From a virus, in the IMG/VR virus record IMGVR_UViG_3300032116_000366, positions 1-46,169 of that record: a stretch of 46,169 bases of DNA. One strand, 5' to 3'. Positions 8,397 through 44,614 of the stretch are shown here, piece by piece. Below the pieces are notes generated by a model. The model was not told where the DNA came from, ran no database searches, and saw nothing but the letters and a program-made list of their open reading frames with translations. The translations under genes and the position numbers were made by a program. Each line of letters starts with the position of its first letter. Position 1 is the stretch's first letter.

Positions 8397-8404
8397 TATT
8401 TATT
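8397..8404 (-). promoter_or_regulatory. Late promoter (AATAAATA) before the 220-aa gene
   Basis: The minus-strand AATAAATA lies across the stop codon of the giant gene's upstream side, between it and the 220-aa gene, with predicted start near 8391. It would boost fibre-gene expression independently of the 14.7-kb gene upstream. It ends 6 nt before ATG 8390, which bears on the choice of start for that gene. Confidence 0.55.
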
Positions 8405-14400: not shown

Positions 14401-17400
14401 GTACCTTCTTGATTCAATACTACTTTGTGACCAAACTCGTCACCTGCTTCTAATTCAATTTCATCGCTATCTATTGTTTGAATAAGAGTAAATGTTTCAT
14501 TAGAAGTTTTTTCGTATACAAAAACTGAACCAGTTTTCCCTAATGTGGAATCTGAGTTTTCTTGCCAAGTCGATGAAGAAAATTCTGGAATAGAATTAAT
14601 ATTATCTACTAGACAGTTATAATAAAAAGTGCCGCGTCTTACAGTATCACCGGCTAGATAATTAATATTGTTTCTCCAGACACCTTTAAAATTTTCAAAG
14701 CTAGCTGTATCATTTGCTGGAGCTGATATTACCATTAAAGAACCGTCTTTATTAAATGCTGAGAAAGTTCCGTAAGAGCTGCCGATATTCAAAAATTCTA
14801 TATCGCCGTTGGCGGGTTGTTGTATAGTAGATCCATCATCAGCATAGGCTAATGAAGGCGGAAGTATACTATTAGTAACCTCCGCAATTTTTTCCCAATC
14901 GCCGGCACCGGGTTGATTATTAGGGACAGCGGGTATATTTGACAATGCTTGCCAATAATCAGAATTATACCATACTCTAGATCCTATAGGATAATTTTTT
15001 GTTGACGAATATATTCCTACAAAATTAGGATCGTCAAGATGCTTCCAGCTCACCCCATCAAATTTATAAAGATAGCTACGGCCCATATCGTCTTTAGATC
15101 CTGGAGCACCCACTACCATATAATAAGCTTCTTCAACACCACCTAACGTGCTGCCTAAAATTCTTATTTGGTCTCCAACATTGTATCTTGTGCCTGCTAC
15201 ATTAACTATAGCATTATATCTTCCATCCTCTCTTACAAGATCAAAAATAGCACCCTGACCTGGGTCGCTAACATCTTCACCTTGTAGATCGTTAAATTGT
15301 CTTTCGCCAGCAGTAGCAGTTCCTGACCAAATAATTCCCGACGACGCAGTTCCTCTAAAAGAAAAATTATCAATAGCAGAGTTTGCTGTAACTAAATTTA
15401 CTCGAATAGTAATGTTATGTTCACCGTCTTCGCCACCTAACTCGCTGCCAGGAATAACTATGATAGACCCTGCGGTGTATCTAATTTTATTTCCTGTTAA
15501 ATCTAAATCTGACCATTCTACTGCTGTTTCGGCAAACACAGCACCAGACACCTGTTCCCAGTACGCTTGATTAGTTGGGAATATTGGTAAAGCATTTTCC
15601 CACTTAGAAGTATCTGTAGGAACGATCCCAGTGTTTAGTCCAGTTGCTGTGTAATATGCTGTAGAGTTAGCTGGATATTTGACTACATCTCCAGGTTGGT
15701 ATGTTCGGCTAGGATTCCATACACCTAAATCTATTCTAGTATCTTTGATACAAGCATATAATCTACCAGAGTATCTTACAATACTTCTTGAGCTATATCC
15801 ACTACCAGCACTAGTGCGAGTGACTGCGTACCTGTTTCCAGATTTAGTTACTCTAAAAGTAGCTTCCTCGTCAGGCAATATTGAATTAATACCTTTGATA
15901 TTATTATAGGTTGCCGATCCAACTATTTCCCCAGTCGCTGTGACTGCTACTACAGTTATAATTAAATCATTAAAAGGAGTAAGCCCTAATAAATTACTAC
16001 CGGTAATTTTTATTCTGTCACCTATAGCATATCTAGATCCGCCAGTTCTTACTAAAACACTATAGGTATTATTAGTTTTTTGGACATCAAACGTAGCATT
16101 AGATCCCGGCAAGCTGATATCTGATCCGCTGACGTTTGAAAATCTAGCGTCTTCTAAACCGCTTTCTCCTTGAGCAGATACTTCTAAAATTCCGCCAACA
16201 CTGTCTATAGAGGCCACTGTTAAGGTTACGTCTCCGCTGGTTCCTTCTATTCCTTCTCTCTTTGATAAACTAATCGTAGACGAGAATTTTTCTCCGTGTG
16301 CCGGACGTGGGCTTATTATTGTGTGTCTTAATTGATATTGGCTGAAAATTTCATCATATTCAAAAATTTCTAAAGCACCTTGCTGTCTGTATCCTTGATT
16401 AACGTCATACAATCCTATACCTAAGGGGTTAGCAAGATGTTCCGTAGCTGGTTTCCAATCTTGACTGTCTATGTTAATCGTTGACCCGTCACCCACAACT
16501 GTGGTTTGTGCTTGGTACAATTTACCAGCAAATAACACAGTATCGCCCGGATTATATGTTGCTGTAGGACTAAAGACTTCTTTATAATTGCTAGGGATAT
16601 AAGAAACAGTTGGCGATCCTACCATTAGCCATCGACCATCTTTACTCGATGCTAATACTTCTCCGTAAGATCCTAAAAATATTGATCTTAAATTTGAATT
16701 AGGATTTAATATCTGTAAAGGAATTAATCCTTCTTCGCTCTGGCCGTAGACAACCACTGCTGATTCTCTAATTACTTCTCCAGCAGGTACCACTTGACCA
16801 GGATTTGACGAAATAATTTGATTTCTTGCTTCTAAAAATAAAACATCTTTTCCTGAACCGGTAGGAAATGCTACACCATAATTAGCTACATCAACAGGTT
16901 TATAAATTCTTTTCTTTTCTAAGACTTCCCACTTGCCTTCGCCGTTGTCATCTAACCAAACTTTAGTTCCTTCTTTATAAGCTGCGAATCTGTCAGAAAT
17001 TAAGTCGCTGTATTGACCCACTCGTAAAGTTTCAAAAATAGATATTGTGGCGAAAGAACTTTGATCGATAACTGGTTCTTCGTCAAATCCAGCTATTTCT
17101 ATGATTACTGTATTAGGATCAACTGCTTTAACTCTCCAGAATCCTTCTAAGTATTTGATATTATTAATTCCTATAATATCATCTACTTTCAATCCGTGTG
17201 GTTTATTACACTCTAAAGCAACCGATGTAGTATCAACTACTGCCACTGCTCCTATAATAATATCTGTAATTGTATATCTTAATACAGACCAGCCTGGGTT
17301 ATCAAAAGTTACCCACACCTTAGAACCATCTTTTAATTCAGTTATATCTAAAGCATATAGGTTGGTTCTAGTTTTTACTACAAAGTCTACATCGCCAGAA

Positions 17401-20400
17401 TATACATAACCTGCCGATGATTCGGTTACAGGATAAGATTTTGTTGGAAAGGTATATTCTGGGCCACCAATAGTAAAATCATTAGATCCTATTAAAATAT
17501 AATTTTGATAATTTGATTTTGATAACCCTCTGCTATCAATAATAATTGGTTGAGGATTTAATCTTATATCCTTTTGATTTAATAATAATTCTAATTCTTT
17601 AAATTGAGATGAGCCTCCAAATGTTCCCATTAAGAATGCCCACTCTTCATTCATTTCAATAGCATCTTGATCTAAAGAACTTAGTTTATCAAAAATTTTA
17701 GTAATAGAATTTGTTGTTCCCTTTTCTCTAATAAATCCTTGATAAATTCTAAATTGTGTAACTTCGTCCTGAGCTAACTCGTCTAGATATCCACGTTTTT
17801 GATATCCAATAGAATGTCTAGCTAATTCTTTTTCAGTATCATCTATTCCTTGATAACCCAATTCATAATAATCTTCAATTTGATTAATCTTATAATCAAT
17901 GTTAGCAACTAAACTAGGTGTAGGGATTGAATCTAATCTTTCCCAATTGTTAAAATTAAAATCGCTAGATCCAGTTTGCGAAACTTTAGAAACATAATAA
18001 TATTCTCTATACTGAACAATATCCCCTAATTTGTAATCAGTAAATGCCTGCCACGGATTAATGTCAGCAGAATCGTATATAAAGCCTGGGCTGGTGTAGT
18101 CTCCATCCCAATCAGTAGTCCTAAATCCTACTAATTTCATTCTATCTTGTCTGTATCCCGGACCTTTATCAAATATAACATCTCCAAACATAGTTCTATC
18201 ATTAAAGATTGCTACATGTTCTTTTTGTACAAAATTAATCTTAGCAAAATATATTCCAGTAGCTTGTGTATCTAACGGAGTTAAAATAAATTCATTATAT
18301 CCTCTGTAAACTTGGATATCAGAAGCAGGTATTTTAGTTCCGTCATTTTTAAAAATATTATATTCGTAAAAATTATCTAAAATATTATCTGCTACGCTAC
18401 CGGCATTGACAATTTTTAATAATGTTGCAGCAGGACTTAAAGTTATTAACGCACCCACGGCCCAGTTATGAGAAGTCCAAAACATAAATTCTTGAACTGA
18501 CAACATCCAATCGTTAGGAACTAATAATTCTTTATTGAAATCATCAAAGACAATTCCTTGATCTACTAACCATTCACTATAACCTAGTATTACATCGACT
18601 ACTTGCTGTATTGTAGAAAAAAAGGCATTATATGGAATACGCTTTACTAAAAATTTATTAAAGGTAGTCCTTTTTATTGCCGTAACATCATTAACTATTG
18701 GTAATGCTGGCAATACTGTAAAATTTTCATTTTGAAAACTATTAGCGGAAAGATGATTAACTGTACAACGATAGTACAATCCTTGATACCGTACTAGGGA
18801 GCCTTTGCCATAAAATTTTTCAGCATCCCAGTCTACATATTTTTCGCTCACACCACCTACAGATATAGTCGGATCGTCAACCCTGGTGTACGGTTCATAC
18901 GTACTAAAGTACGAATTTAATTTATCGTAGCCGAATAATTTAAAACCGCCGTCAACTTTTTCTATTACTATTCCAGAATAGCTAATAGATTTAGCTACAG
19001 AACCAGTATTAAAAATAATTTGAAAATCTTCTGGCGGTATAAAGACTGCTGGAGATTTAGATGTTGGACTCTTACTATCTAAAATATATCGTTGTCTTGC
19101 TTTTTCAACAAATCCGCCTATCTTATGAGATATTCTTACATCTAAATTGCTTATTGTATTTGACAATAGCGAAATATCTATAGCGTTAAATTTTAGATAA
19201 TTTTGAATGTAAGTAAACAAACCCGATGGGTCACTGTCTACACTAGACGTTAAGGTTTGCTTATCGATAAATGTTCCAGTATCTTTGTCAATTAATTGAT
19301 CTAATTTGTTTTTTACAATTTTGTTCCTATTAAAATTTGTAGATATAAATTCAAAAGGAGTTAGGAGACACGCGGCTGTAATTATAGAAAACGGGTACAG
19401 CGAACTTCTTCTCCAAGAATTTTCAACTGGACCGTAATCTCCAAATTGAAAATCTTCATTTATTTTATTCAATGAATAATCTATAATCGCAGAAGCGTCT
19501 TGCGGTGATAATAAATTTCCATGATCATCTACAGGAATGTAATCTAATAGACCCGGCTTAGCATATCTAGGGTTTGCTCCCGTAGTTGGGCCTTGTCTTA
19601 TAATTCCCTGTTCTAAATCTTCCCATAATAATAGGTTACCTTTGGTATAAGGAGCAGGACCATATTCTTCTTCCCACCATAAGGGCTTTTCGCTGAACCC
19701 TAACATCTCCCAGGGGCATGTGTGAGGTCTATCAGTATCGTATAAAAATTTGTATATACCTCTCCAATATTGCGGAAGTTTAAGTTTTTTGTTTCTATCA
19801 GTGGCTCTAAAATATGTGTATGTAAAAGGATTTTCGGACTGATAAACTTCATTTTTATAAATGTCAATTCCTAAATTATTAGACCATTTTAAAAAATCTG
19901 TCTCTATAACATCGTCTATTGTAGATACATCATATATTGCTTGGCCGTGATATCCTTTAAAAAATCTATCAACATCAAAAATTTCTGTATCATATTTTAT
20001 TTTAAGATTATTATAGATTCTCTTTTCTAATTCCAATATAATATCATCTCTTAAATCACCAAAAGCAATCGTAATACTGCCGTCGTGTCCTTGTATTACT
20101 TCTGTAGGTTCTACCAGAGTGTCATCAAGATAAATTCTAGGAGTAAATTTTTTGTACAACCCTAATTTAGTAGGCGTTTCTGGAATAAAATTATAAGTTG
20201 TTGTTAGATATTCTCTAATCTCGATTCTGTCATTTTCGTTTAGATTTACTAATAATTTTACAAATCCAAAGGTAGAATCAAATACATAATCAAACCCATG
20301 TAACATTTGGATATCGTTAACATACACGTAGACAGCACGAGATGAATTTGTATCTAAGTCAAATTTTTCATTTAAAGCAAAAGTTGTAATGCCTTCATCT

Positions 20401-23075
20401 TCAACAGTATAATTAATTACTTTATAAGCACCGCTACCGATCATGTCCGATGTAGCAAAAGGAAAATCAATAACATTAGATTTAGACATCTTATCTAAAA
20501 TTTTATCTACAAATTCCACAATACTACGTTGATCAAAATCTAATTCGCTAGCTAGAGTAATAAAATTATTTTTAAACTTTTCGTATTCGTTGGCTGCGTG
20601 TCTAATAGACTTTATTAGATTAATATCTTTATCACATAATAATGGAAATGCCAATACTCCTAGACTAGCTCGTTTCATAAATCTAGAACCGTTCTGTCTA
20701 TAATTCACTATATCTCTGATATTACTAGCTCCTGGAAATTCTCCTTGGAATCCGGTGTCTACTTCAATCATAGTTTTTAAATGATCATTGGCCTGGCCTA
20801 GAGTAAATTGTTCTAGGTTTTCATTTAGGGGATTTTTTTCTAAAGAATTAGGAATTTCATAATAACCTAAATTTGGCTCGTCGGTCGTAAAGATTTTTAA
20901 AGTTACAGTTTCCCCTGCTTTTAAAGTTTGGTCAAAAACAAAAGTTCTTGTATCTGCTACAAACGTGCTGGTAAAACTTGTGTTAATTTTTTTACCGTTG
21001 ATGTAGAATAATATATGTTCTGTAGCATTGCCTGACCAAATACACGCCGACGATGTTATTGAATTTGTATCACTTTCTATAATAAAAGTGTCAAGGATAG
21101 GTTGTCTTAAATTAGGATTAGTTTTAATCCACCCGTTAAAAAATTCTTCAGTTTGATGATTTTTAAAAAAACCGGACGCTGATAATTTATTAATAGTTTG
21201 TCCAGACTGTTGATATAAAAATGAATCTTTTTCAAAATCAACTTCAAATAAAATATCTCCAGAATTATTAATATTCAAATAGGACAACGAAAACCCTAAT
21301 TCTTTATCTACCGGTCCGTTTCCTATTTTATAGCTAATAAGTTCACTTCCAGCAAAGGTTGATGTTTCATATTTTTGATTGTCGGAAAACGAAACTCCCT
21401 CGTCATCAAACAAATCAAATAACGGAAATTGATTTATAGAAGTTTTTGTTTGACTACGTACCCACTGTTCGCCATCATAATGATACATCCTACCTTTGTT
21501 TAGCACACTACCCTTGGATATGATTATGGCTTCACCTATAATAGGATCAGTATCATTGGTTTCAACTAAACTAATTTGGGTTCTATTAATAGTGTTTGTA
21601 CTAGTTTGAACAGTTATAATCTTTACTTCAAAAATTTTATTCTTAACAAATGGATCAGTGTCATTTAAAAATAAAATTCTATCGCCATCCTCAACCGATT
21701 GCCCGTCAATATTATAACCGGCAGATCCTTCTATAGTTGAAAATACATCTTTAGTAAAATCGTCTATCAAATCAACTGTTTTCTTAGGCGTTGACCCATG
21801 ATTAAACAATTGAATATTTGGAAGGAATTCTATTATAGGACGCTTGGCTCTGTCAGTTTCTGTTAACGACGGCGGTACTCCGTTTATATTAGCAGCATAT
21901 TCTATAACATCTCTATGGAACCATCTATTATAACGTGCCCACGGATTTTTATCTTTACTACTTTTATTAATGGTAATATAGTCTTTTTGTGTAGGATATG
22001 ACGAAGCATCGTCAAAAGGCAAAGTATCGAAGCCGCCATCATCAAAAGTAATTTCTATCTCATTAGAAATAATAGGCGGAATTTCTAGTTCGGCAAAATT
22101 TACTAATTTAATAGATTCGCCAACTCCTTCTACTAGCCATAAACTATCATTGTAGATAGCAGGCTGTACTTTACCTACAAATTGTACTTTTAATCCATTG
22201 GTAAATTTTATATTATTAGAACTTGTGTAATTTACCTTACCAAGAATTTCTTTTTCAACGTCTATAAAAGAATTTTCTAAAACAGACGCAATTACAAAAC
22301 TGCCAACACGATTAATATTATTTTCGCTTTGATAATATAATAATTCTGGAGCATCTAACGGAACTTCAAATGTTATAGTACCAACTTCAATTCCGTTATT
22401 AGTTACACCTTTATTATAATTTTCTTGATTACCTTTGAGATTTCCGGATCTGATAACAAACGGATCACCGGGACTATTAACATCAAAAATATATGTTTGA
22501 CCTCTGTAAAGAGTAAGTTGAGGATTTCTTTTTAATCCGTCTGGGTAGAACAACCATTCGTTCTGGCCGTCTGAACGTACACGATAGCTAGATATAACAT
22601 TTTCTGCTTGGCCGGCTACTGAGACTGTTTCTGGTCCAACTGGCAACCAATAATATTCTCTATAGTTTATAAACTTGTCCCAATCGATAGGAGGGTTCCA
22701 ACTATATTGTTCTTGATAAGTTGCTAAATCGTCTCTTTCAGATAAGTTATTAAAAAATTTTAATTGATTTTTTAAATCAACATAGTCGTATACTTTCTTT
22801 ACTTTCTGACCGCTTTCTATTACTACCGCAGGTTCTAGTTGATAAGATGATCTTAAAGATTTTTCTACATCAACATAAATGTCTTGAGAATTAAATGTTT
22901 TTCCATAACGACGACCAACAAATCCCGACAATCTTTCTAAAGTACCGGGTTGGACTAACGCATCTAGCGTAGTTGAAAGAAACTTATCATTAGTACTTGT
23001 TTTAAAAATATCAGGAAGTAGATCAACGGTTCTTCTTACTGGTAGTTCGCTTTTTTTGAAAATTTTATTTGACAT
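8403..23075 (-). CDS. Giant mosaic baseplate-region protein in the gp7 position (4,890 aa)
   Basis: One uninterrupted frame of 4,890 codons starts at ATG 23075, overlapping the gp6 stop as TAATG. In T4 the gene after gp6 is gp7 (about 1,030 aa), so this is a wedge-position protein nearly five times larger. The N-terminus (DLLPDIFKTSTNDKFLSTTL, FVGRRYGK, NYREYYWLPVGP) matches a type of very large structural protein in marine T4-like phages. Residues ~170-260 resemble a cupredoxin-like domain without copper ligands. Residues ~1415-2840 contain at least six short WxxxxxYxxGDxVxYxGxxYxA modules resembling family 5/12 carbohydrate-binding domains. Residues ~2135-3040 contain FG-GAP-like propeller blades (DEFGHKVVLNQEGTRLFVSA, ERFGSNVSVSPDG). 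Two GxGYxxxPxVxIxGG units lie near 3460 and 3830. The last ~700 residues repeat strand-rich units and end WYDRGASTATTGQGLSYS. Likely role: baseplate periphery and host-surface contact (inference). Confidence 0.85.
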   Translation of the reverse strand: MSNKIFKKSELPVRRTVDLLPDIFKTSTNDKFLSTTLDALVQPGTLERLSGFVGRRYGKTFNSQDIYVDVEKSLRSSYQLEPAVVIESGQKVKKVYDYVDLKNQLKFFNNLSERDDLATYQEQYSWNPPIDWDKFINYREYYWLPVGPETVSVAGQAENVISSYRVRSDGQNEWLFYPDGLKRNPQLTLYRGQTYIFDVNSPGDPFVIRSGNLKGNQENYNKGVTNNGIEVGTITFEVPLDAPELLYYQSENNINRVGSFVIASVLENSFIDVEKEILGKVNYTSSNNIKFTNGLKVQFVGKVQPAIYNDSLWLVEGVGESIKLVNFAELEIPPIISNEIEITFDDGGFDTLPFDDASSYPTQKDYITINKSSKDKNPWARYNRWFHRDVIEYAANINGVPPSLTETDRAKRPIIEFLPNIQLFNHGSTPKKTVDLIDDFTKDVFSTIEGSAGYNIDGQSVEDGDRILFLNDTDPFVKNKIFEVKIITVQTSTNTINRTQISLVETNDTDPIIGEAIIISKGSVLNKGRMYHYDGEQWVRSQTKTSINQFPLFDLFDDEGVSFSDNQKYETSTFAGSELISYKIGNGPVDKELGFSLSYLNINNSGDILFEVDFEKDSFLYQQSGQTINKLSASGFFKNHQTEEFFNGWIKTNPNLRQPILDTFIIESDTNSITSSACIWSGNATEHILFYINGKKINTSFTSTFVADTRTFVFDQTLKAGETVTLKIFTTDEPNLGYYEIPNSLEKNPLNENLEQFTLGQANDHLKTMIEVDTGFQGEFPGASNIRDIVNYRQNGSRFMKRASLGVLAFPLLCDKDINLIKSIRHAANEYEKFKNNFITLASELDFDQRSIVEFVDKILDKMSKSNVIDFPFATSDMIGSGAYKVINYTVEDEGITTFALNEKFDLDTNSSRAVYVYVNDIQMLHGFDYVFDSTFGFVKLLVNLNENDRIEIREYLTTTYNFIPETPTKLGLYKKFTPRIYLDDTLVEPTEVIQGHDGSITIAFGDLRDDIILELEKRIYNNLKIKYDTEIFDVDRFFKGYHGQAIYDVSTIDDVIETDFLKWSNNLGIDIYKNEVYQSENPFTYTYFRATDRNKKLKLPQYWRGIYKFLYDTDRPHTCPWEMLGFSEKPLWWEEEYGPAPYTKGNLLLWEDLEQGIIRQGPTTGANPRYAKPGLLDYIPVDDHGNLLSPQDASAIIDYSLNKINEDFQFGDYGPVENSWRRSSLYPFSIITAACLLTPFEFISTNFNRNKIVKNKLDQLIDKDTGTFIDKQTLTSSVDSDPSGLFTYIQNYLKFNAIDISLLSNTISNLDVRISHKIGGFVEKARQRYILDSKSPTSKSPAVFIPPEDFQIIFNTGSVAKSISYSGIVIEKVDGGFKLFGYDKLNSYFSTYEPYTRVDDPTISVGGVSEKYVDWDAEKFYGKGSLVRYQGLYYRCTVNHLSANSFQNENFTVLPALPIVNDVTAIKRTTFNKFLVKRIPYNAFFSTIQQVVDVILGYSEWLVDQGIVFDDFNKELLVPNDWMLSVQEFMFWTSHNWAVGALITLSPAATLLKIVNAGSVADNILDNFYEYNIFKNDGTKIPASDIQVYRGYNEFILTPLDTQATGIYFAKINFVQKEHVAIFNDRTMFGDVIFDKGPGYRQDRMKLVGFRTTDWDGDYTSPGFIYDSADINPWQAFTDYKLGDIVQYREYYYVSKVSQTGSSDFNFNNWERLDSIPTPSLVANIDYKINQIEDYYELGYQGIDDTEKELARHSIGYQKRGYLDELAQDEVTQFRIYQGFIREKGTTNSITKIFDKLSSLDQDAIEMNEEWAFLMGTFGGSSQFKELELLLNQKDIRLNPQPIIIDSRGLSKSNYQNYILIGSNDFTIGGPEYTFPTKSYPVTESSAGYVYSGDVDFVVKTRTNLYALDITELKDGSKVWVTFDNPGWSVLRYTITDIIIGAVAVVDTTSVALECNKPHGLKVDDIIGINNIKYLEGFWRVKAVDPNTVIIEIAGFDEEPVIDQSSFATISIFETLRVGQYSDLISDRFAAYKEGTKVWLDDNGEGKWEVLEKKRIYKPVDVANYGVAFPTGSGKDVLFLEARNQIISSNPGQVVPAGEVIRESAVVVYGQSEEGLIPLQILNPNSNLRSIFLGSYGEVLASSKDGRWLMVGSPTVSYIPSNYKEVFSPTATYNPGDTVLFAGKLYQAQTTVVGDGSTINIDSQDWKPATEHLANPLGIGLYDVNQGYRQQGALEIFEYDEIFSQYQLRHTIISPRPAHGEKFSSTISLSKREGIEGTSGDVTLTVASIDSVGGILEVSAQGESGLEDARFSNVSGSDISLPGSNATFDVQKTNNTYSVLVRTGGSRYAIGDRIKITGSNLLGLTPFNDLIITVVAVTATGEIVGSATYNNIKGINSILPDEEATFRVTKSGNRYAVTRTSAGSGYSSRSIVRYSGRLYACIKDTRIDLGVWNPSRTYQPGDVVKYPANSTAYYTATGLNTGIVPTDTSKWENALPIFPTNQAYWEQVSGAVFAETAVEWSDLDLTGNKIRYTAGSIIVIPGSELGGEDGEHNITIRVNLVTANSAIDNFSFRGTASSGIIWSGTATAGERQFNDLQGEDVSDPGQGAIFDLVREDGRYNAIVNVAGTRYNVGDQIRILGSTLGGVEEAYYMVVGAPGSKDDMGRSYLYKFDGVSWKHLDDPNFVGIYSSTKNYPIGSRVWYNSDYWQALSNIPAVPNNQPGAGDWEKIAEVTNSILPPSLAYADDGSTIQQPANGDIEFLNIGSSYGTFSAFNKDGSLMVISAPANDTASFENFKGVWRNNINYLAGDTVRRGTFYYNCLVDNINSIPEFSSSTWQENSDSTLGKTGSVFVYEKTSNETFTLIQTIDSDEIELEAGDEFGHKVVLNQEGTRLFVSAPNFDYLGKDQGSVFVFDKTTSGFVLKQKLNGLIMEPGERFGSNVSVSPDGVTLAISAEGAASYKTTIFDRGNTAFDRFVTRFRDSQGKTGKVYVYTNYTGSFVLSEILDQGLNTDEDFGRGLSVSNNSIIVGSPSFISEDPAFEAVRIGRLQKFDKIPNSKPWFTIKQQDDQVNIDLLKNFSFYDKFNNVKLADVDILDPAKGKILSLADQYIDFKTSFDPAVYSVGTEESATDPKQSWQLDKVGTIWWDLSAVKWALYEQNSLSFRNGNWGSTAVGSSVDVYEWVESSYSPSEWNALTGTTEGFSLGITGTARYGDDTNYSVKTNFDTITGLPSGSMYYYWVKNKTTVPEDLDRDLSANQIANYISAPSSAGIPYALLTSKNTFSLVNFNSVIDDDEFLVNIQFYDQEKEINLIHNEYQLLAEGTIQVPNLELENKWIDSLIGEDIAGQAVPDRKLPVKLRYGISSRPRQSMFINRNKAVSLIIDYVNDILKKKPFAEIIDYGNLNLQDEKPALTKNLYDQVLETEKELRFIATSKIKTAKLKANIVNGHINTVDVIDGGYGYKTAPDIKILGSGSGAKFKPTLDNRGSITSVEVINQGKKYLTANLIVRPFSVLVSQDSSVNNFWSIYSLDEKNKEFYRTATQSFDTKNFWKKVDWWLQPFNEKSKIKKTIAGLYEEASVDLAIGDLLRLENYGIGGWAVLERVNATDADISGKYKLVGRKLGTIQIINGFYNTDVESTGYDLSQAFDSNKYDSSASIEFRNILKAVKEDIFKEDLSVEWNKLFFVSLRYVFSEQLYVDWAFKTSFLNAVHNVGILEQKLNYKNDNLSSYQSYIEEVKPYRTKIRNYISKYFNVELANQLTTDFDLPPVWNPETSSIDVIGSNSNQLSQYPWKLWVDNNHYSVVDIKIVSPGKNYSSVPQIIFDGGNGTGAQAQAYISNGKISKIVVTNPGSGYISAPTVMIVGGVGSEIQNAARAVAIIGDSKVRTFDMKMKFDRISKTPKFKSYSFNEKFIEIETFNASAKQTTYKLKYPLSLDKSTITVTLDGSRLLSSQYSVTLTEELINSKTELIGRLILNSAPDEASIVVIEYQKNNEILDSLNRIDKYYKPKDGQLGVEKIRIDDTEGSEVVSDYSQLITGIDYGGTIVQGATFDIGAGWDALPWFTEGWDSSEVNETDFYFLVDGSTTSVLLPEVPKQGIDINIYVKRVTTGKTVRLDFETYNEYQLGDSSYSGEVPPETAIMNTFVGDGSTASIIIPQAANLESGDLLIFRPSTSDGSLVIGGRNSIDAYISGGSLSGMSAYSTATGTTAAEIVLDGDRLISPEQVPAPEENVPGQVLEALSIKVFHSSRSGSSAVKSKIYIADGNTVIFDIGQKIIEKTNILVFVDKFKKDIDTEFVILSENNSIRFIGTIPTAGSVIEIFTMGTGGKGILDYREFTGTGNDRYFITGASFNETVTVFASVDNQPVDVGFINSAQLTDTQDKTLVEFGVAPTEGSRIVLIALNTDQRPLVKINHVEIPLDEAIKEYAIPTFSGLDIDPAGDMLVEINGELLRTVETTYKIYDGNNNIQIGVDTPRDPGTVIFTDLKVFVDNQLKTFGIDFTFTSENNTVTFIKPITLGAVIRIEDSSGRQYSIADTNIVLEQFTEYSTGDTLSITWFERYTELDIVKDEFNGGKVSFSLQRPLIGISYVWVYKNGIRLTPDIDFYVELPRAIYLRQETTESDIIETISFGDRLYKQPLSFEIFKDVLNRNHYNRYRVLDLKLDKDFNYFDNEITLVDASPLASPSKDQPGIITIQGEKIQYYEKIGNVLKNIRRGLFGTAIRAVYPKNTLVVDTGFLEFIPYQEAQEKEDFISDGTSLLVGPLNFLPGKANISNWYRNTIPTNFGRCDQIEVFVGGRRLRKDATKIYDSTVGAYSPAGDIDIEAEFSVDGINENIRLTYPVPAGTRITVIRRQGRLWYDRGASTATTGQGLSYSNTAIAKFLQNSSTKLP
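13955..16680 (-). repeat. FG-GAP-like beta-propeller blades inside the giant gene
   Basis: At least five segments have the blade pattern FG..v..s.DG..l.vgaP. They are GSYGEVLASSKDGRWLMVGS (~16670), SSYGTFSAFNKDGSLMVISA (~14785), DEFGHKVVLNQEGTRLFVSA (~14440), ERFGSNVSVSPDGVTLAISA (~14260) and EDFGRGLSVSNNSIIVGSPS (~14030). Between them are GSVFVFDKT or GKVYVYTN strands, the usual fourth-strand partner in such propellers, and a YYMVVGAPGSKDDMGRSYLY segment near 15100 that fits one more blade. The carbohydrate-binding-like modules are inserted between blades rather than following them. A propeller of six or seven blades is plausible but the blade count is my reading, not a model. Confidence 0.55.
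14555..18835 (-). repeat. Six diverged carbohydrate-binding-like modules inside the giant gene
   Basis: Read on the minus strand, six protein segments share the plan aromatic/Tyr - GD or GS - V - aromatic - YY/LY - about 20 residues - W. Their cores are GKGSLVRYQGLYYRC (~18800), LGDIVQYREYYYVSK (~18010), PGDTVLFAGKLYQAQ (~16530), PGDVVKYPANSTAYYTA (~15680), IGSRVWYNSDYWQA (~14980) and AGDTVRRGTFYYNC (~14650). This is the pattern of small chitin-binding-like modules (CBM 5/12 type). Each is about 45 residues and they are separated by other domains. The similarity is at protein level; the DNA copies are too diverged to align by eye. A partial seventh copy (SIVRYSGRLYACI) lies just upstream of the fourth. 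Confidence 0.55.
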
Positions 23076-37289: not shown

Positions 37290-38366
37290 ATGAAAATCAC
37301 TGATATATTATCTCAAAAACAACAACAACAGGTATCTGAAGCACCTGTAGGTATGTTAAAAAGGGCTGGTCTAGGTATTGCTTCTAAGTTTGGAAGTAGT
37401 TCTGCTAAGGGTGCTCTTGACATGGCCAAGTATGCTAATGGCCTCAGAAAACAATTTGACTTTTATCTAGGTCAAACAGATCAAAAACCTAATTCGGATG
37501 CGTTAATTGCCTTTTTAAAATCCAACGGTTTTCCTACAGCAGGAGCCGAAGCTGCGTTAAAACAAGCAGCTATGGCATCGGGTAGTGCAGCAACTGGTGA
37601 TATTGCCAAAGAACTTGGGGCAGATAGAGTTGAACCTACTGGTACGATAGAAGTTCCAGCAGATCCAAGCAGTGATGCTGCTCCTGAGACACCCGCTGAG
37701 CCAGGTGCTCCAGAAACTCCCGCTGATACAGCAGCTCCAGGTGCTCCAGAAACTCCCGCTGATACAGCAGCTCCAGGTGCTCCTGAAGCACCTGCCGATG
37801 AAGTTCCTCCTAAAGGAAAAAAGAACAAATCAGCTGAGAGCATTGGTGAATTATCACGCATTGCTCAATTAGCAGGATTACGATACAACCCAGTTAGTGA
37901 AACAATCATTGACGAAGTAGAACTTAAGAATTCAACAGTAGACAGTATTATCAAAGCAGCAGTTACTGATATCCTTAAAGCCAAAATGGGTCAACAACTT
38001 GATGCGGTCATTGGTGGGCAAGGTGCTTCAGCTCAAGACATTAGCCGATCAGGCGGTGACGCTGGAGATGACGCTGGCGGCAGCGGTGTAGGATCATCGT
38101 TTATTCGTGGAGTTAAACAAGGTATGTCAGGCGGTGAAGAACCAACTAAAACCAAAGGTAGCCTTAACTACGGTAAACTATCAGAATTGCTTCCTGGTAT
38201 CGATGCTAATCAATTAAGAAAATCAGTTACTAGCTATATGGCTGGTAATCCATTAACTAGAGAGCAAATGAATGTAATGTCTAATGCTTTTGGAGAATTG
38301 GTTAAGATGGATCCTGCTCAGACTGCTAAAGCACTTCAGTTATTAAAAGCTGTACGTGCTGGTTAA
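37290..38366 (+). CDS. Late protein of unknown function with Pro/Ala-rich repeat linker (358 aa)
   Basis: I do not recognise the family. The N-terminal ~110 residues look helical (GALDMAKYANGLRKQFDFYL and a glutamine-rich start). Residues ~115-175 are an acidic proline/alanine/threonine linker with repeats of the type GAPETPADTAAP. The following region contains SIGELSRIAQLAGLRYNPVS and VDSIIKAAVTDILKAKMGQQ, amphipathic helices. A glycine-rich stretch and a helical C-terminus end the protein. A perfect late promoter and AGGACAC leader make it a late product, so a virion or head-assembly protein is likely (inference). Its stop codon overlaps by three bases the end of the -1-frame ORF coming from the opposite strand. 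Confidence 0.75.
   Translation: MKITDILSQKQQQQVSEAPVGMLKRAGLGIASKFGSSSAKGALDMAKYANGLRKQFDFYLGQTDQKPNSDALIAFLKSNGFPTAGAEAALKQAAMASGSAATGDIAKELGADRVEPTGTIEVPADPSSDAAPETPAEPGAPETPADTAAPGAPETPADTAAPGAPEAPADEVPPKGKKNKSAESIGELSRIAQLAGLRYNPVSETIIDEVELKNSTVDSIIKAAVTDILKAKMGQQLDAVIGGQGASAQDISRSGGDAGDDAGGSGVGSSFIRGVKQGMSGGEEPTKTKGSLNYGKLSELLPGIDANQLRKSVTSYMAGNPLTREQMNVMSNAFGELVKMDPAQTAKALQLLKAVRAG
37704..37775 (+). repeat. Perfect 36-bp tandem duplication in the linker of the 358-aa protein
   Basis: The unit beginning GGTGCTCCAGAAACTCCC is present at 37704-37739 and again, identical, at 37740-37775, with diverged partial units on both sides. Each copy adds 12 residues (GAPETPADTAAP). Identity at the DNA level points to a recent duplication or ongoing slippage. 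Confidence 0.9.
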
Positions 38367-38593
38367 AAAAACGGTAGTCCAGAACTCTTAGTAATATCCA
38401 TGTTGTCCTTGACTATCTCAAGGACTAACTCTCTTTCGTCCCAGCTGAGGTTCATGGCTTCGGCAAATGACAATCCGCCACGCATATACCAAACTGAACG
38501 CATAGCTTCCAGTTTGATCTGCTTTGCCTGTTCATCAAGGGCTTTCGACTCGGCTAATACCTCGGGGATACTTAACGTCGAAAGCCGTTGCCG
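38363..38593 (-). CDS. Overlapping -1-frame ORF after gp26 (76 codons), probably expressed by frameshift
   Basis: In the -1 frame relative to the gp26-like gene, an ORF is open from 38620 to TAA at 38365-38363. Its sequence looks coding: an acidic/alanine helix (IPEVLAESKALDEQAKQIKL), then SVWYMRGGLSFAEAMNLSWD, ERELVLEIVKDN and the C-terminus TKSSGLPFF. The WYMRGGLxxxEAMxL and KSGLPFF patterns are familiar from the small protein next to gp26 in marine T4-like phages. By position this is the place of T4 gene 51 (baseplate hub assembly), though homology to gp51 itself is not shown. No ATG, GTG or TTG occurs in the first 30 codons after the slip site. The first ATG (38503) has GGAAG only 3 nt away and would cut off the helix. 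The frameshift product would be 291 + 76 = 367 aa. Confidence 0.75.
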   Translation of the reverse strand, partial: RQRLSTLSIPEVLAESKALDEQAKQIKLEAMRSVWYMRGGLSFAEAMNLSWDERELVLEIVKDNMDITKSSGLPFF

Positions 38594-38599
38594 AAAAAA
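38540..38599 (-). promoter_or_regulatory. -1 programmed ribosomal frameshift signal
   Basis: On the minus strand the heptamer T TTT TTC (38599-38593) is in the correct phase of the gp26-like frame (codons GAT TTT TTC, residues 289-291). A 6-nt spacer (38592-38587) is followed by a perfect 10-bp stem, GGCTTTCGAC (38586-38577) pairing with GTCGAAAGCC (38549-38540), around a 27-nt loop. These are the three textbook elements of a -1 frameshift site at textbook spacing, and the -1 frame entered is the one that codes for the downstream domain. Confidence 0.8.
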
Positions 38600-39465
38600 T
38601 CCGATTGGTCCATAGTAAGCTCAACGTCCCATTCGTGTTCGCATTTTTGGCATTTACTATGAAAGCTGCTAAGGTTTCCAGTTTCTCTAGTTTTGCTCAC
38701 TGCGGTGTTAATCTGTTCAAACACAGACTTATCAGTCTTTTGTAAAAATTCTTTTATAAAAGCAGGATCTTCAGTCATACCAGCAGAACTTTCAATCTTT
38801 GTAATACACTTTACAGCAGTATCTATAGTTAAATCGGTTAACTTAATAAAACTTTCTTGGAAAATTTTTAATTTTTCCTGCTCTTCAATTGTATCATCGT
38901 TGATTACTTGAAAAATTCGCTGATGCTCAAACGCTTTCAACGCAGTTTTAGTAATTTCTTCGTAAGTCATCGGACGCAGATACACAATCATGTCTGAACC
39001 AATTTCAACTTTGGTATCAAAATTAATTTTGTTTAATCTATCCAACACATCACGTAGATCAACCATAGAGTCATTAAGATTTTCACATTGCGGGCATCTA
39101 ACAGAAACTTCCATTTCCTCGCCATATGTGGCAATCCTAATTGCTGATAACACCGCATCAACATCAAGACTTGGAATCTTCCAAGGATCTAAAATGTTAG
39201 GGATGCAACTACTGATAACTTCTCTAGTTGCTACCCCGTTCATCAATGCGTCTGGGGTTTTAAATAACAATTCATCTCTGGCCGTCATGGCGAACACAGG
39301 ATATTCGTTGTTAGTGGTCTTTTTTAACGACCCTTCCGGATAAAATTCACCTTTTGACGGCAGAGAAACATAGATCTTTGGTTGTCTAAAAAACGCCGCT
39401 AGAGGATTAACTGCTGGAGCAGCATTTTGTTGAGACTGAAACTTACTTGGATCAAAATCTGGCAT
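38572..39465 (-). CDS. 26: Baseplate hub/assembly protein gp26-like (297 aa)
   Basis: The protein matches the T4 baseplate protein family seen in marine relatives: FFRQPKIYVSLPSKGEFYPE, PVFAMTARDELLFKTPDALM and SCIPNILDPWKIPSLDVDAV near the N-terminus. Two CxxC pairs (CPQC near residue 117 and CQKC near 275) probably bind one zinc. The end is TMDQSDFFGNGFRR. T4 gp26 (208 aa) acts in hub assembly. A late promoter TATAAATA lies at 39504-39497 and an AGGTGG ribosome-binding site 6 nt before ATG 39465. The last eight codons contain a -1 frameshift signal leading into a second ORF, so two products are predicted: 297 aa and a 367-aa fusion. It is divergent from the tape-measure-like genes. Confidence 0.88.
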   Translation of the reverse strand: MPDFDPSKFQSQQNAAPAVNPLAAFFRQPKIYVSLPSKGEFYPEGSLKKTTNNEYPVFAMTARDELLFKTPDALMNGVATREVISSCIPNILDPWKIPSLDVDAVLSAIRIATYGEEMEVSVRCPQCENLNDSMVDLRDVLDRLNKINFDTKVEIGSDMIVYLRPMTYEEITKTALKAFEHQRIFQVINDDTIEEQEKLKIFQESFIKLTDLTIDTAVKCITKIESSAGMTEDPAFIKEFLQKTDKSVFEQINTAVSKTRETGNLSSFHSKCQKCEHEWDVELTMDQSDFFGNGFRR

Positions 39466-39476
39466 GTTTTTCCACC

Positions 39477-39484
39477 TATAAATA
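39477..39484 (+). promoter_or_regulatory. Late promoter (TATAAATA), rightward, for the tape-measure-like genes
   Basis: A perfect late consensus on the plus strand lies 58 nt before ATG 39543, with predicted start near 39490. It lies to the left of the leftward promoter at 39504-39497, so the two promoters point across each other. Confidence 0.7.
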
Positions 39485-39542: not shown

Positions 39543-42131
39543 ATGGCAAAAACTACAGTAGAAATCCTAGGCGGAGAACTAGACGGTACAGTATTAAACA
39601 ACATAGCTAGCGAGGCTACTATGCGTGAACTACTGGCCGCAATTAAATCAGAATCTAAATCTCCAGGTGGTGGCGGCGGCGGCGGATCGAGCAAGACAAA
39701 AAATCCAGCTAAAAATCTAGATGTAATGTCAAAATTAGCCAACGGTCTAGGTAATCAGATTGGCAACGTAATAGGTGCCGTGGGCAGTATGGGAGCAATG
39801 TTGCTAACAGGCAACACCAAGATGAGTTCTTATACCAAAACATTAAATGATCAAGTTATTGCTAAATTGCCTATCGTTGGAGGCCTGTTAGGTGGACTAG
39901 GTGGAATAATCAGTGACAGCATTGAAGTGTTTGAAGATTGGAATGAGAGTTTAAAAACAGGCACTCAAACTGGAGCAACATTTGGTAACAGTATCCTTAG
40001 AGCTTCAAAAGCAGCAACGGATGCGGCTATGGATATTGATTCGTATATGAAAATGATTTCTAGCAACTCATCAGTGATGCTGAACCTAGGAAAAACAGTT
40101 ACTGAAGGTGCTGAGAGATTTAGTAAAATATCCAGATTGTTGAATAGAGATGGCGGCAAAGCAACACAAACTCTAAGACAAATGGGTATGAATGCTAGGA
40201 ATGTTAATGAAGGATTGATTAGTTACATTGATATTATGGGCGGGGGATTACTTAGAGATAAACGTTCAGATGCCGATGTTGCAGACAGTTATGAAAAGTT
40301 TCAACTCAACATAATGAGATTGACTTCATTAACAGGAAAAAGTGTAAAAAAATTAGAAGAAGAAATGGCTGTAGCAACTAAAGACGTTGTATTCAAAATG
40401 GCTTTACAAAAACTAGATGAAAAAGAACGATCTAAGTTACTTAACACGTTAGCCAATTACACCGCTATGTATGGCCAGTCTGGTGCTGAACTGTTTAAAT
40501 CATTGTATCTTCAAATGCCGCCGGGCGATGAAGGTGCTAGAAACTTAATGGTATTACAACCGCAATTAGTTAGGTCTATGAAAGATTCTATCAACACTGC
40601 TTTAGATACTAATGTTACTATAGATAAAATGTCTAGTAGGATAGAAGATGATATTATTTCAGTGATGCTAAAATCTGCTAAATCAACATCCGGTTTAGAA
40701 GGATTATTAGCTGCTGCCGGTGCTAGTTACGGTGATGCTAAATCTCTTACCGCTGCTATAAATCCTATTCTAAATCAATTAGTAAAATACGGAGATGTAT
40801 CTAAGTTAACTGAAAAAGATCTTAGAGCCATGTTTAAGAAAGCTAGAGACGAACAAAAAGCTAGAGACGAAATTACTAAGTTCCTCAATGACTTTGAAAT
40901 GGCTATGCAGGATTTAAAATTTCAGCTAATGGATTTTTTATATCCATTGTTGGATGATTTAGGAAAAGTTTTAGAAAGACAAGATTTACCAGGTAAAGTA
41001 AAAGCGTTTGGTAACTGGATCAAAGATAGTGTTGAAAAGTATCTGCCTGATGTGATAACATTTTTCAAATATCTAGGAGATGAAAACGGCAGAGACTTTA
41101 TTTGGAACGAAGTAACATATTTCTTTGAACGTATGGGCATTAATTTTATGTACCATGCTAAAACCATGTTTGATAAAGATAGGATGGGCGATTTTGCTGT
41201 AGATAGAGATAACGCATTAGCAAAAGCCCTAGAAGATCACGAACAGAGACAAAATATACTTCGTCCAAAGTTACCAGAAAGATATACACCACAATCAGAA
41301 AGAGGGGCAGCAGTACCAAATAAGAGTGGTAGGGCAAGCTCAGTAACCGAAACCGGTAAAAAAGATCAGGGCGTAGTAGCTGCTTCAGATAAAATAGTTG
41401 CTGAATTAAAAGATAAACTAGCTATTTTTAATCCCGTAGGAAAAGGATCATCTTTAGCAATAAACAGCGAATTTGGTAATATACGTCAATATCGCGATGC
41501 TGATGGTAACGTGATGCGTGAAAGTGTACATCCGGGTGTGGATGTAAAGGCAGATAAAGCAAAAATAAGAGCCGGCATAGACGGAAAAGTTTCATACGGA
41601 TATGAATCAGGTTACGGATACTATGCAAAAATTTTAGGTGCTGACGGTGTTGAATTACTTTACGGTCATTTACACCAAACAGACACACAAGACCAATTTA
41701 CTAGAAAACTACATGGCGGTACAGTAACGGCTGGCACAGAGATAGGAATATCAGGAGGCGGCAAGGGCGATCCGGGAGCAGGAACTTCTACAGGTCGACA
41801 TTTACATTTAGAAGCTAGACGCAACGGAGTAAAATTTGATCCTACATCGTTAATAAAGCCAGGTATGAGTACAGGAACTTTAGGAACTTATGGTAGTTTG
41901 TTTAAAGATTTTGGATCAGCTACAGATGTTATGTTAGAAGGTACAAAAGCTGTTATGACTCCTGAGCAAATGAATAATGTTATGACAGGTGCTGGCAATA
42001 TGGCCACTAAAGAATTGTTGGAATCTATAGATGTAAATTTTGCAAGATTAGAAATGTTAATGAGAGAACGCACTAATCTATCAAGATCTCAACTTTCCTA
42101 CATAGAAAATAATCAAATGACGATAGCATAA
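39543..42131 (+). CDS. Tape-measure-like tail protein with M23 peptidase domain (862 aa)
   Basis: The N-terminus (MAKTTVEILGGELDGTVLNN) and C-terminus (GTYGSLFKDFG...EGTKAVMTPEQ) match the 827-aa gene that follows, so the two are paralogues. The end resembles the FG-GT-V-HG-EAVV motif of phage tape-measure proteins. Residues ~20-540 are mostly helical with glycine-rich stretches near LPIVGGLLGGLGGI that could be hydrophobic. Residues ~638-770 form an M23/LytM metallopeptidase: H663-P-G-V-D667, YGHLH at 707-711, and GRHLHLE with H753 and H755. All zinc ligands are present, so it should be active and cut peptidoglycan cross-links. A weak GGACAC ribosome-binding site precedes ATG 39543. The stop overlaps the next start (TAATG). 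Confidence 0.8.
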   Translation: MAKTTVEILGGELDGTVLNNIASEATMRELLAAIKSESKSPGGGGGGGSSKTKNPAKNLDVMSKLANGLGNQIGNVIGAVGSMGAMLLTGNTKMSSYTKTLNDQVIAKLPIVGGLLGGLGGIISDSIEVFEDWNESLKTGTQTGATFGNSILRASKAATDAAMDIDSYMKMISSNSSVMLNLGKTVTEGAERFSKISRLLNRDGGKATQTLRQMGMNARNVNEGLISYIDIMGGGLLRDKRSDADVADSYEKFQLNIMRLTSLTGKSVKKLEEEMAVATKDVVFKMALQKLDEKERSKLLNTLANYTAMYGQSGAELFKSLYLQMPPGDEGARNLMVLQPQLVRSMKDSINTALDTNVTIDKMSSRIEDDIISVMLKSAKSTSGLEGLLAAAGASYGDAKSLTAAINPILNQLVKYGDVSKLTEKDLRAMFKKARDEQKARDEITKFLNDFEMAMQDLKFQLMDFLYPLLDDLGKVLERQDLPGKVKAFGNWIKDSVEKYLPDVITFFKYLGDENGRDFIWNEVTYFFERMGINFMYHAKTMFDKDRMGDFAVDRDNALAKALEDHEQRQNILRPKLPERYTPQSERGAAVPNKSGRASSVTETGKKDQGVVAASDKIVAELKDKLAIFNPVGKGSSLAINSEFGNIRQYRDADGNVMRESVHPGVDVKADKAKIRAGIDGKVSYGYESGYGYYAKILGADGVELLYGHLHQTDTQDQFTRKLHGGTVTAGTEIGISGGGKGDPGAGTSTGRHLHLEARRNGVKFDPTSLIKPGMSTGTLGTYGSLFKDFGSATDVMLEGTKAVMTPEQMNNVMTGAGNMATKELLESIDVNFARLEMLMRERTNLSRSQLSYIENNQMTIA

Positions 42132-44614
42132 TGGCTAAAAATACTGTAGAATACTTTAGTTCAAAATTAGGTAGCGGAGTAATTAACAACGCTGCGTCCG
42201 AAACCACGCTTCAAGAAATTGTTAGATACTATAAAGATAACTCTAACAATAATAGAGGCGGCGACGACGTATCTGACGAAGCTGGTGCTGCTGGTACATC
42301 ACTTAAATTACTAAAAAAAAGTTTTACTACATTAACTGCCGGACTATCAAATACAGTTAGTGCTGGTAAGAATTTTATCTCTATGATAGCTAGGGGTGAA
42401 GATAAACTCAGTGCTTACGGAAAATTTATACAAGATGATTTAATTAAAAAACTTCCAGTTGTGGGAGACACTTTAGGTGATCTTGCCGGCATTGTAACAG
42501 AAACTATAGTGGCTTTAGAATCTTGGAACGACGGGCTGCGAGAAGCAAACAAACACGGAGCAACATTTAATTATAGTATTTTTAAATTTAAAGAAACTGC
42601 TTTAGATATGGGATTGTCTACTGACGAGCTTGTATCGTTGGTTGGAAGTAACGCAGAAACGTTAGTATCGTTAGGCGGAGGTACAATGACTACCGGTATA
42701 GATAATTTACGAAAATTATCTGCTGCTATGTTTATGGATTCTGATCGAGTGTCAGATATATTAGATCGATGGGGATATAACACATATCAACAAAATGATT
42801 TACTATTAGAATTCTATGCTGCAACTAGAAGAGGAAAAGCTGTAACAGAAAACAATCTTAATAGCACTAGCAACGAATTTTTACAATACGCTAGTCAAAT
42901 AGATGCTTTTCAAAAAATAACAGGCATGGGTAAAGAGCAGCGTCAAGAAGCCGCAGCGGCAGCTAACCAAGACCTATCATATAAACTAAAAGTTGGAAAA
43001 TTATTACCTGCTCAGCAGGCTAGGATGGAAACAGCTTTACAGAGTTTTTCTATGGTATTTGGTGCTCAAGGAGCAGAATTATTTAAATCTAGAGAATTAG
43101 GTGTTCAATCTATCAATGATACTGTAATAGCATTACAGTATGCGTTAGGGCCAAGTTTTGAAAGGTCTATGGATACTATTATTAAAATGGCCAAAGACAC
43201 CAGTGTTAGTCCTAAAGTATTTGAAGATTATGTTAATAATACCATAGGCAGTCAATTAGCTAATTCTAAAGAAGCTATGAAAGATTTGGAAGGTATAATA
43301 AAAGGTTCAGTATCGGGAAATGAAAGTTCTAAAAAGCTAGTTAAGGCTCTTACACCAGCAATGGAATTTATGATTAAACAAGGCGGTCTAAGCAAAGACA
43401 TGGAAGGTCAATTTGTTAAGATGGTTGAAGCAGCTAAAAAAGAGCAAGGAAAAACAGATGCGTTTACAGATACTCTAAGAAAATTTCAAAGATCGGTATA
43501 TCGTGTCTATCGAGCACTATTAAAAGGATTCTTTCCTATCATGAAAGAACTAGCCAAAGAATTTAAAATAGCTATGATACCCGACCAACTAAGAGCGTTT
43601 AGCAAATATCTAATACAATTAGCTAATGATGCGTTACCGTATGTAAAAAACTTTTTTGCAAATCTCACAGATGATGACACGCTTGTATACATGAAAAATA
43701 TATTTGAAAGCATGTTTGAAGCGGCCATTATATATTTTCATATGTACATGCGAAAAGCAATATATTCAACATTTAATGTTGAAGGTGCAGCAAAGTGGTT
43801 AGCAAAAATAGGAATTGGTCCAGACCTTGATCGGATGGCGGCAGAAGCTGAAGCTAGGCTTAGATTTGCCAGAGAAAATAGAGACCAGTTAATTTTGCCT
43901 AAAGAAGAAAGAAGGATGCCGGTAAGTCCAGAAGATGAAAAAGTTGTTATAGATGGCAAAACATATTATATTAGAGATTTATTAAGAGGCTCAGATGGAC
44001 GTTTTAGATCTTACGACAGCACTTATGAAGGAGGCAGCGGCAGTCGAGTTACAGATGCTGCTCTTACCGCAGCAATTCTAGCACTTAGAGAACGTAAAGC
44101 ACAGGCAGGTGCTTCGATGCCAGACGATAGAGATCAATTTGGAGGGTTAACGCTGTTACAAAGAGAAGCAGTGGCTAATCTTTTAAACAAAGGCATCCGT
44201 GGAATAGGCACAAACCTAAATCCTTTAAGACAAGTAATGTTTGATCCTGCTTTGTTTGCCCAAACAAAAAATAGAAATCTCCCTAAAATTCAAAGGATTA
44301 TGGAGAGAAAAGAGTATGCTGATGAAGTAGAAAGGTTACGCAAAGAATATCCTTCAACTTATATGGGTATGAATACTGGTACTCTTGGAACCCTTGGAGG
44401 ATTGTTTGGAAACTTTAAACGCGGTACAATGGCCACGCTTCACGGAAAAGAAGCAGTAGTATCACCAGGACAACTTCAAAATGTGATCAATACAAGTGCT
44501 CAGATCTCGATGAGAGATGTAGTAAAACGTTTAAATAGTAATATTAATCGCATGATTGATGTAGCAAAACAAGATGTTGGATTAGAGCGTTCTAAACTGT
44601 TAGCTATGACCTAA
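42131..44614 (+). CDS. Tape-measure-like tail protein, paralogue without peptidase (827 aa)
   Basis: The protein begins MAKNTVEYFSSKLGSGVINN, parallel to its upstream neighbour, and ends GTLGGLFGNFKRGTMATLHG then KEAVVSPGQ. That is the tape-measure C-terminal motif in a more complete form than in the 862-aa protein. The middle is helical, with matching segments such as GAQGAELFKS (GQSGAELFKS in the paralogue) and KLPVVGDTLGDLAGI. No HxxxD or HxH motif is present where the other copy has M23, so this copy is structural only. T4 gp29, the tape measure and hub protein, is 590 aa. Either or both genes could fill that role; I cannot decide which. The ATG overlaps the previous stop, giving coupled translation, and the portal gene follows after 21 nt. 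Confidence 0.7.
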   Translation: MAKNTVEYFSSKLGSGVINNAASETTLQEIVRYYKDNSNNNRGGDDVSDEAGAAGTSLKLLKKSFTTLTAGLSNTVSAGKNFISMIARGEDKLSAYGKFIQDDLIKKLPVVGDTLGDLAGIVTETIVALESWNDGLREANKHGATFNYSIFKFKETALDMGLSTDELVSLVGSNAETLVSLGGGTMTTGIDNLRKLSAAMFMDSDRVSDILDRWGYNTYQQNDLLLEFYAATRRGKAVTENNLNSTSNEFLQYASQIDAFQKITGMGKEQRQEAAAAANQDLSYKLKVGKLLPAQQARMETALQSFSMVFGAQGAELFKSRELGVQSINDTVIALQYALGPSFERSMDTIIKMAKDTSVSPKVFEDYVNNTIGSQLANSKEAMKDLEGIIKGSVSGNESSKKLVKALTPAMEFMIKQGGLSKDMEGQFVKMVEAAKKEQGKTDAFTDTLRKFQRSVYRVYRALLKGFFPIMKELAKEFKIAMIPDQLRAFSKYLIQLANDALPYVKNFFANLTDDDTLVYMKNIFESMFEAAIIYFHMYMRKAIYSTFNVEGAAKWLAKIGIGPDLDRMAAEAEARLRFARENRDQLILPKEERRMPVSPEDEKVVIDGKTYYIRDLLRGSDGRFRSYDSTYEGGSGSRVTDAALTAAILALRERKAQAGASMPDDRDQFGGLTLLQREAVANLLNKGIRGIGTNLNPLRQVMFDPALFAQTKNRNLPKIQRIMERKEYADEVERLRKEYPSTYMGMNTGTLGTLGGLFGNFKRGTMATLHGKEAVVSPGQLQNVINTSAQISMRDVVKRLNSNINRMIDVAKQDVGLERSKLLAMT

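Follow-up and report, generated by a model that had tools for sequence, protein, structure and literature searches.

A predicted −1 frameshifting tail assembly chaperone gene related to T4 gp26/gp51 in a divergent lineage of jumbo phages

Overlapping reading frames at the locus

IMG/VR virus record IMGVR_UViG_3300032116_000366, a linear record of 46,169 bases that was analyzed over its whole length (the window), carries on its minus strand a candidate tail assembly chaperone (TAC) gene related to T4 genes 26 and 51. Its 297-amino-acid (aa) open reading frame (ORF) overlaps a second, −1 frame at the 3' end, which reads GAT TTT TTC GGC AAC GGC TTT CGA CGT TAA (Table 1). The phase of the T TTT TTC heptamer suits tandem −1 slippage, and its first TTT stands eight codons ahead of the 0-frame stop. 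Beyond a spacer of 6 nucleotides (nt) (38592-38587), the arms GGCTTTCGAC (38586-38577) and GTCGAAAGCC (38549-38540) pair at 10 of 10 positions, and the 0-frame stop sits inside the 27-nt loop that they enclose. Counted from the heptamer, the −1 frame stays open for 78 codons, 76 of them after the two phenylalanines (FF), and stops at 38365-38363, giving a predicted fusion of 367 aa. The initial annotation of this DNA had described the in-phase heptamer, the spacer, the perfect 10-bp (base pair) stem with its loop, and a protein-like −1 frame of 76 codons, and all of these were found as described. It had also seen no ATG, GTG, or TTG in the first 30 codons of the −1 ORF; there is none in the first 32, and the earliest is the 33rd codon, 71 nt beyond the 0-frame stop.

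A base-call error in the T6 run, which the initial annotation had raised as something that would restore a single frame, did not hold. It was ruled out because copies 99 to 100% identical are present on three other contigs (L001-L003) and because the site is common to all 42 relatives found in IMG/VR.

Table 1. Features of the locus and its divergent neighbors, in window coordinates
Feature	Coordinates	Strand	Basis
0-frame ORF, putative short form (TAC-N, gp26/PF12322-like), 297 aa	38572..39465	(-)	PF12322, phrog_150, structure-model match
Slippery heptamer T TTT TTC	38593..38599	(-)	Sequence reading and conservation in relatives
Stem-loop, 10 bp, 27-nt loop, beginning 6 nt past the heptamer	38540..38586	(-)	Folding, shuffles, relatives
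-1 frame ORF, predicted C-terminal domain of the long form (TAC-NC)	38363..38599	(-)	Open frame, alignment, substitution pattern, helical model
AGGTGG, likely ribosome-binding site of the 0-frame ORF	39472..39477	(-)	6 nt before the ATG, inferred from sequence
Divergent neighbor, tape-measure-like, M23 peptidase domain	39543..42131	(+)	PF01551 E 3.1e-12; PF06791 TMP_2 E 8.6e-4
Second divergent gene, paralogue of 39543-42131	42131..44614	(+)	27% identity, 553 alignment columns, E 5e-60

Conservation of the heptamer and the downstream stem

A scan of IMG/VR yielded 42 relatives of the gene at 40 to 100% identity, 28 of them distinct over the region and 14 identical copies. In all 42, an in-phase TTTTTTC precedes the 0-frame stop by 3 to 8 codons. 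The cyanophage-like set, which comprises the best 80 of at least 591 loci, has TTTTTTCG in phase at every locus. We also examined 15 named phage records in which either a short second ORF or an open −1 frame comes after a PF12322 gene. An in-phase T6N heptamer is present in 14 of them (Phosso, Atu_ph07, 121Q, RaK2, PA5oct, Vibrio 2.275.O, SCTP-2, CM1, Kaldavass, XacN1, cyanophage Sf-FS3, Rhizobium phages IC12 and RL38J1, and Aeromonas phiAS5), as TTTTTTC in 11, TTTTTTT in CM1 and XacN1, and TTTTTTG in RL38J1.

Among 24 lineages, taken at less than 75% identity, the residue ahead of FF varies (D, N, H, R, S, or Y), yet its codon always ends in T. With the amino acids held fixed, a T preceding TTT in all 24 has a log10 p of about −10.5, a value that treats the lineages as independent and is indicative only. 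The X XXY YYZ heptamer is conserved in phase beyond what the amino acids need. T4-type gp26 3' ends (motif filter, 11 loci) have the T6 heptamer in none of eight cases, and seven of the eight encode EFF with TTC TTT. The conservation supports a real programmed −1 frameshift and, with it, the fusion of the gp26-like protein to a second domain that the initial annotation had proposed; slippage itself and its frequency are inferred.

The RNA that follows the heptamer in the window has a folding z of −3.3 (2 of 200 shuffles were equally stable). Its stem outscores all 255 phase-matched positions of the same gene, with a p of 0.003 against synonymous-codon shuffles. When stems were allowed to start 2 to 12 nt after the heptamer, the best began at 2 to 8 nt, with sequences that differ among lineages. 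They reached p≤0.01 against dinucleotide shuffles at 15 of 29 distinct sites and p≤0.05 against synonymous-codon shuffles in 15 of the 24 lineages; compared with phase-matched positions in the same gene, they ranked in the top 1% in 10 lineages and in the top 5% in 14. The seven nearest sequences, five of which are distinct, keep the stem 100% paired; in L007, a U-A pair replaces A-U, the single compensatory change. Covariation among these seven is slight (90 of 500 shuffles scored as high), with too little change for a test. The comparisons point to a downstream structure at fixed spacing, with a putative stimulatory role.

The frame could instead change when the gene is transcribed, through slippage of the polymerase along the T6 run. 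Such slippage would agree with a conserved core that is a homopolymer, extended to seven T's in CM1 and XacN1, but six T's are short for it, and the seventh base is C in 42/42 IMG/VR relatives and 80/80 cyanophage-like loci. A stem that keeps its place while its sequence changes likewise fits a ribosomal stimulator rather than a slipping polymerase, and we consider transcriptional slippage extremely unlikely.

The second domain and the relation to T4 gp26 and gp51

The −1 frame evolves as a protein, judging by its substitution pattern: in six pairs of relatives, the stretch read only in the −1 frame has 89, 39, and 175 substitutions at −1 codon positions 1, 2, and 3. The frame extends 209 to 224 nt beyond the 0-frame stop in the 28 distinct IMG/VR loci, and a 21-row alignment of the domain has eight invariant columns (F1, F2, R3, W37, R40, G42, R56, and N66). 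The AlphaFold2 model of the domain is helical, with a mean predicted local distance difference test (pLDDT) score of 89.6. A profile search with this tail against the PDB gave nothing credible (best E 0.068). At the level of coding sequence, the locus has the arrangement of a TAC, a predicted short form plus a long form that adds a conserved C-terminal domain.

Start codons in the −1 frame differ among the relatives. PA5oct has none anywhere in the frame and phiAS5 none before +50, whereas in Phosso and Atu_ph07 an ATG overlaps the 0-frame stop and an ATG is present at +5 in every one of the 80 cyanophage-like loci, 15 of which have a further start at −1. Of the junction features to which the initial annotation had pointed, the heptamer is kept across relatives and the stem is supported in 15 of 24 lineages, and the lack of a start codon is not general. 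The second ORF might be a gene of its own, with ribosomes reinitiating or starting internally, and overlap the heptamer by accident. Several records do annotate it as a separate coding sequence; in Cygsa01, the 15th named record, the second ORF has an ATG and there is no heptamer. In the window, however, starting at the 33rd codon would delete a large part of the model's long helix, and L007, with Phe at this position, shows that the start is not conserved. The −1 domain also opens with the invariant FFR, which begins upstream of the 0-frame stop. An independent second gene is disfavored for the window and PA5oct and possible for the cyanophages; for the second ORF of the window, we regard it as very unlikely. 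Judged from the reading frames, frameshifting appears to be the only evident route to the whole second domain in the window and PA5oct, though not everywhere. Of the 14 named records with the heptamer, 13 are annotated, and none of these has a joined coding sequence.

The 297-aa protein matches PF12322 over profile positions 4 to 218 of 219 (E 4.5e-16, 59.6 bits against a cutoff of 24.5) and phrog_150, "baseplate hub" (E 3.9e-21). Each match extends as far as residue 291, which is the second Phe encoded by the heptamer. The model of this body (mean pLDDT 81) resembles a predicted T4-like baseplate hub assembly protein with a template modeling (TM) score of 0.86. Searches of the PDB gave nothing credible with the profile (best E 0.34) and no match at E≤0.001 with Foldseek, and a second look at the structure found partial helical matches only (best Z 8.0 over 54 residues). 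An NCBIfam search returned nothing above a cutoff.

T4 gp26 (208 aa) spans the full PF12322 profile, to residue 206. T4 gp51 (249 aa) is a gp26-like body plus a tail, because its own full-profile match runs to residue 201 and 48 further residues follow. By these matches, gp51 corresponds to the whole long form and gp26 to the short form. The initial annotation had read the locus as a frameshift-fused form of this pair; its implied equation of gp51 with the second domain alone needs correcting, gp51 being a full PF12322 paralogue with a tail. Its description of T4 genes 26 and 51 as adjacent separate genes was right as to adjacency, to which it must be added that they lie on opposite strands and diverge. 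In RB43 (L150:2001-3294), the two PF12322 genes are head to tail on the same strand, unlike the divergent T4 pair. At another locus of the T4 gp51 type (L064:1501-2246), the frame stops at 120 aa though tblastn covers residues 1-247, through either a sequence error or an interruption; this row was left out of the gp51-tail set used for profile comparison.

T4, Aeromonas 31, and RB43 have two copies of PF12322 each, and the domain is single in 19 of 20 heptamer-bearing records (14 named phages and 6 IMG/VR contigs, the latter perhaps fragments). The exception is SCTP-2, in which PF12322 fell below threshold, though tblastn found the gene. In profile comparisons with hhalign, the cyanophage −1 domain reached a probability of 95% against the gp51 tail (pairwise E 2e-8) and 97.5% against the Rhizobium/Aeromonas −1 domains. 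A maximum-likelihood tree of 36 proteins, rooted at the midpoint and with some long branches, places the T4-type gp26 and gp51 clades as sisters (94/86), with phiAS5, a single-gene frameshift phage, next outside (97/91) and the cyanophages and the jumbo clade outside that group. Since phiAS5, the cyanophages, and the jumbo clade all lie outside the gp26-gp51 pair, this order favors a frameshift ancestor with later duplication in the T4 line. We lean toward the view that one gene, bearing a T6 heptamer and a stem kept in place but not in sequence, was ancestral for the whole T4 superfamily including the jumbo phages. The T4 line would then have swapped recoding for duplication, one copy becoming fused in frame (gp51) and the other losing the heptamer (gp26).

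Chaperone function, neighboring genes, and precedents

In phages lambda (G/GT) and P2 (E/E'), a −1 frameshift near the 3' end of the gene leads to short and long forms of a tail chaperone. The window gene is likened to these systems by layout only, from general knowledge of them: short and long forms would arise by −1 frameshifting in the same way, whereas tape-measure-like genes are divergent in the window and downstream in those systems. We consider it highly probable that the window gene encodes a TAC of the T4 gp26/gp51 family with a short form and a −1 frameshifted long form. Most ribosomes would halt at the 0-frame stop and yield the 297-aa TAC-N. A fraction would slip −1 on T TTT TTC, aided by the stem-loop 6 nt downstream, and yield the 367-aa TAC-NC, which would carry a helical domain of 76 aa at its C terminus. 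On the lambda G/GT model, TAC-N would form a coat around the tape measure protein, and TAC-NC would use its added domain to bring in parts of the tail tube or hub; the finished virion would contain neither. Chaperone function and tape-measure binding are both putative. In T4, the same two forms come from the paralogous genes 26 and 51.

The frameshift might be real and its products nonetheless structural hub proteins rather than tape-measure chaperones, as usual annotations such as baseplate hub subunit imply. The available text of PMC3004832 bears on both sides, citing genetic work that places gp26 in the hub but listing gp26 and gp51 as hub assembly chaperones and describing gp51 as essential and absent from the particle. 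The pairing of a short and a long form is that of TACs, and the T4-like record H106 is annotated as a tape measure protein assembly chaperone. Moreover, the PA5oct record marks the two preceding opposite-strand genes, and not the gp26-type gene, as detected by electrospray ionization tandem mass spectrometry (ESI-MS/MS). A structural role in the hub is in our judgment improbable.

Several results weigh against the frameshifted TAC that we prefer. The minimum free energy of the first 70 nt reached p≤0.05 at only 15 of 29 distinct sites, and in 9 of the 24 lineages (L021, L023, L030, 121Q, RaK2, SCTP-2, CM1, phiAS5, and RL38J1) the stem was no better than synonymous shuffles at p≤0.05. The model of the −1 domain had no BFVD fold match at E≤0.001. 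The −1 domain of the window clade resembles the other tails weakly in profile comparison (hhalign 14% with the cyanophages, 6% with Rhizobium/Aeromonas, and 1.5% with the gp51 tail), the alignments falling on the same stretch. The link of the window second domain to the gp51 tail is accordingly weak, resting on its position after a homologous body and on the cyanophage intermediates. Separate initiation at the +5 ATG is possible in the cyanophage-like loci. Pseudomonas phage Cygsa01 has no T6 run despite the same layout and a single PF12322 gene, which slightly lowers our confidence; another route to the second domain may exist there, where the short second ORF with its ATG follows the PF12322 gene (L151:1572-2482). 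Finally, the initial annotation had described the gene as divergent from two tape-measure-like genes. The divergence stands, and the identification of these neighbors as tape measures is weakly supported, the TMP_2 match of the first lying under the curated cutoff.

Only the first of these two tandem paralogues (39543-44614) has the M23 peptidase match. The neighbor in RaK2 is annotated as similar to a tape measure protein. Downstream of the −1 ORF, a convergent gene on the plus strand (37290-38366) meets it tail to tail, the two stops overlapping, and contains a repeated PADTAAPGAPET-like stretch at about 37660-37790. Elsewhere in the window, a single ORF of 4890 aa (8403-23075, minus strand) lies amid tail genes.

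The idea of TACs in T4-like phages is already in print, and the window belongs to a divergent jumbo-phage lineage. The abstract of Vladimirov et al. 2022 reportedly names genes 26 and 51 and describes frameshifting as conserved in several T4-like groups. According to the available text of the PRFect paper, some T4-like phages have, in place of the frameshift, two genes, one for a short TAC and a longer one that is a fusion (PMC10885494, citing Vladimirov, Gautam and Davidson 2022), and that of the phage Adele paper mentions poly-T slippery signals in the TAC-N genes of T4-like phages (PMC12846349, citing Vladimirov et al. 2022). The initial annotation had suggested gp26/gp51-type proteins as the T4-like counterpart of lambda G/GT; the conservation found here supports this, and the proposal had been made in that literature, as far as its available text goes. 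A literature search, with most subscription papers outside its scope, found no report joining jumbo phages with TAC or baseplate hub frameshifting.

The window gene shares with T4 gp26/gp51 the PF12322 body, the short and long forms, and, with T4-like TAC-N genes as described in the available text of PMC12846349, the poly-T site. It differs in being one frameshift gene in place of two divergent paralogues, and its C-terminal domain and the gp51 tail have diverged greatly. The cyanophage gp26-type gene has the same heptamer and layout (80/80 loci) and a homologous body, 16 to 23% identical to that of the window; in cyanophage Sf-FS3, the downstream ORF is annotated as a baseplate hub assembly catalyst. 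There, unlike in the window, the 0-frame stop is three codons from the heptamer and the +5 ATG is present throughout. The TAC genes of Vandenendeviridae and Andersonviridae, with GTTTTT, are similar in that a conserved poly-T −1 site ends TAC-N and the −1 frame is open, again in the accessible part of PMC12846349; these are other phage families, likened by site and layout alone.

The divergent jumbo lineage, the start-less cases, the branching order, and the way in which the stem-loop turns over may be new. The gain is one of breadth, stem-loop evidence, and better annotation, with no new principle. Raw sequence supports frameshifting in the T4-type tail chaperone gene across a broad range of phages, with the window and PA5oct as start-less cases in which frameshifting would be the only evident way to the whole second domain. 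For the T4 26/51 pair, the direction suggested is that duplication took the place of recoding.

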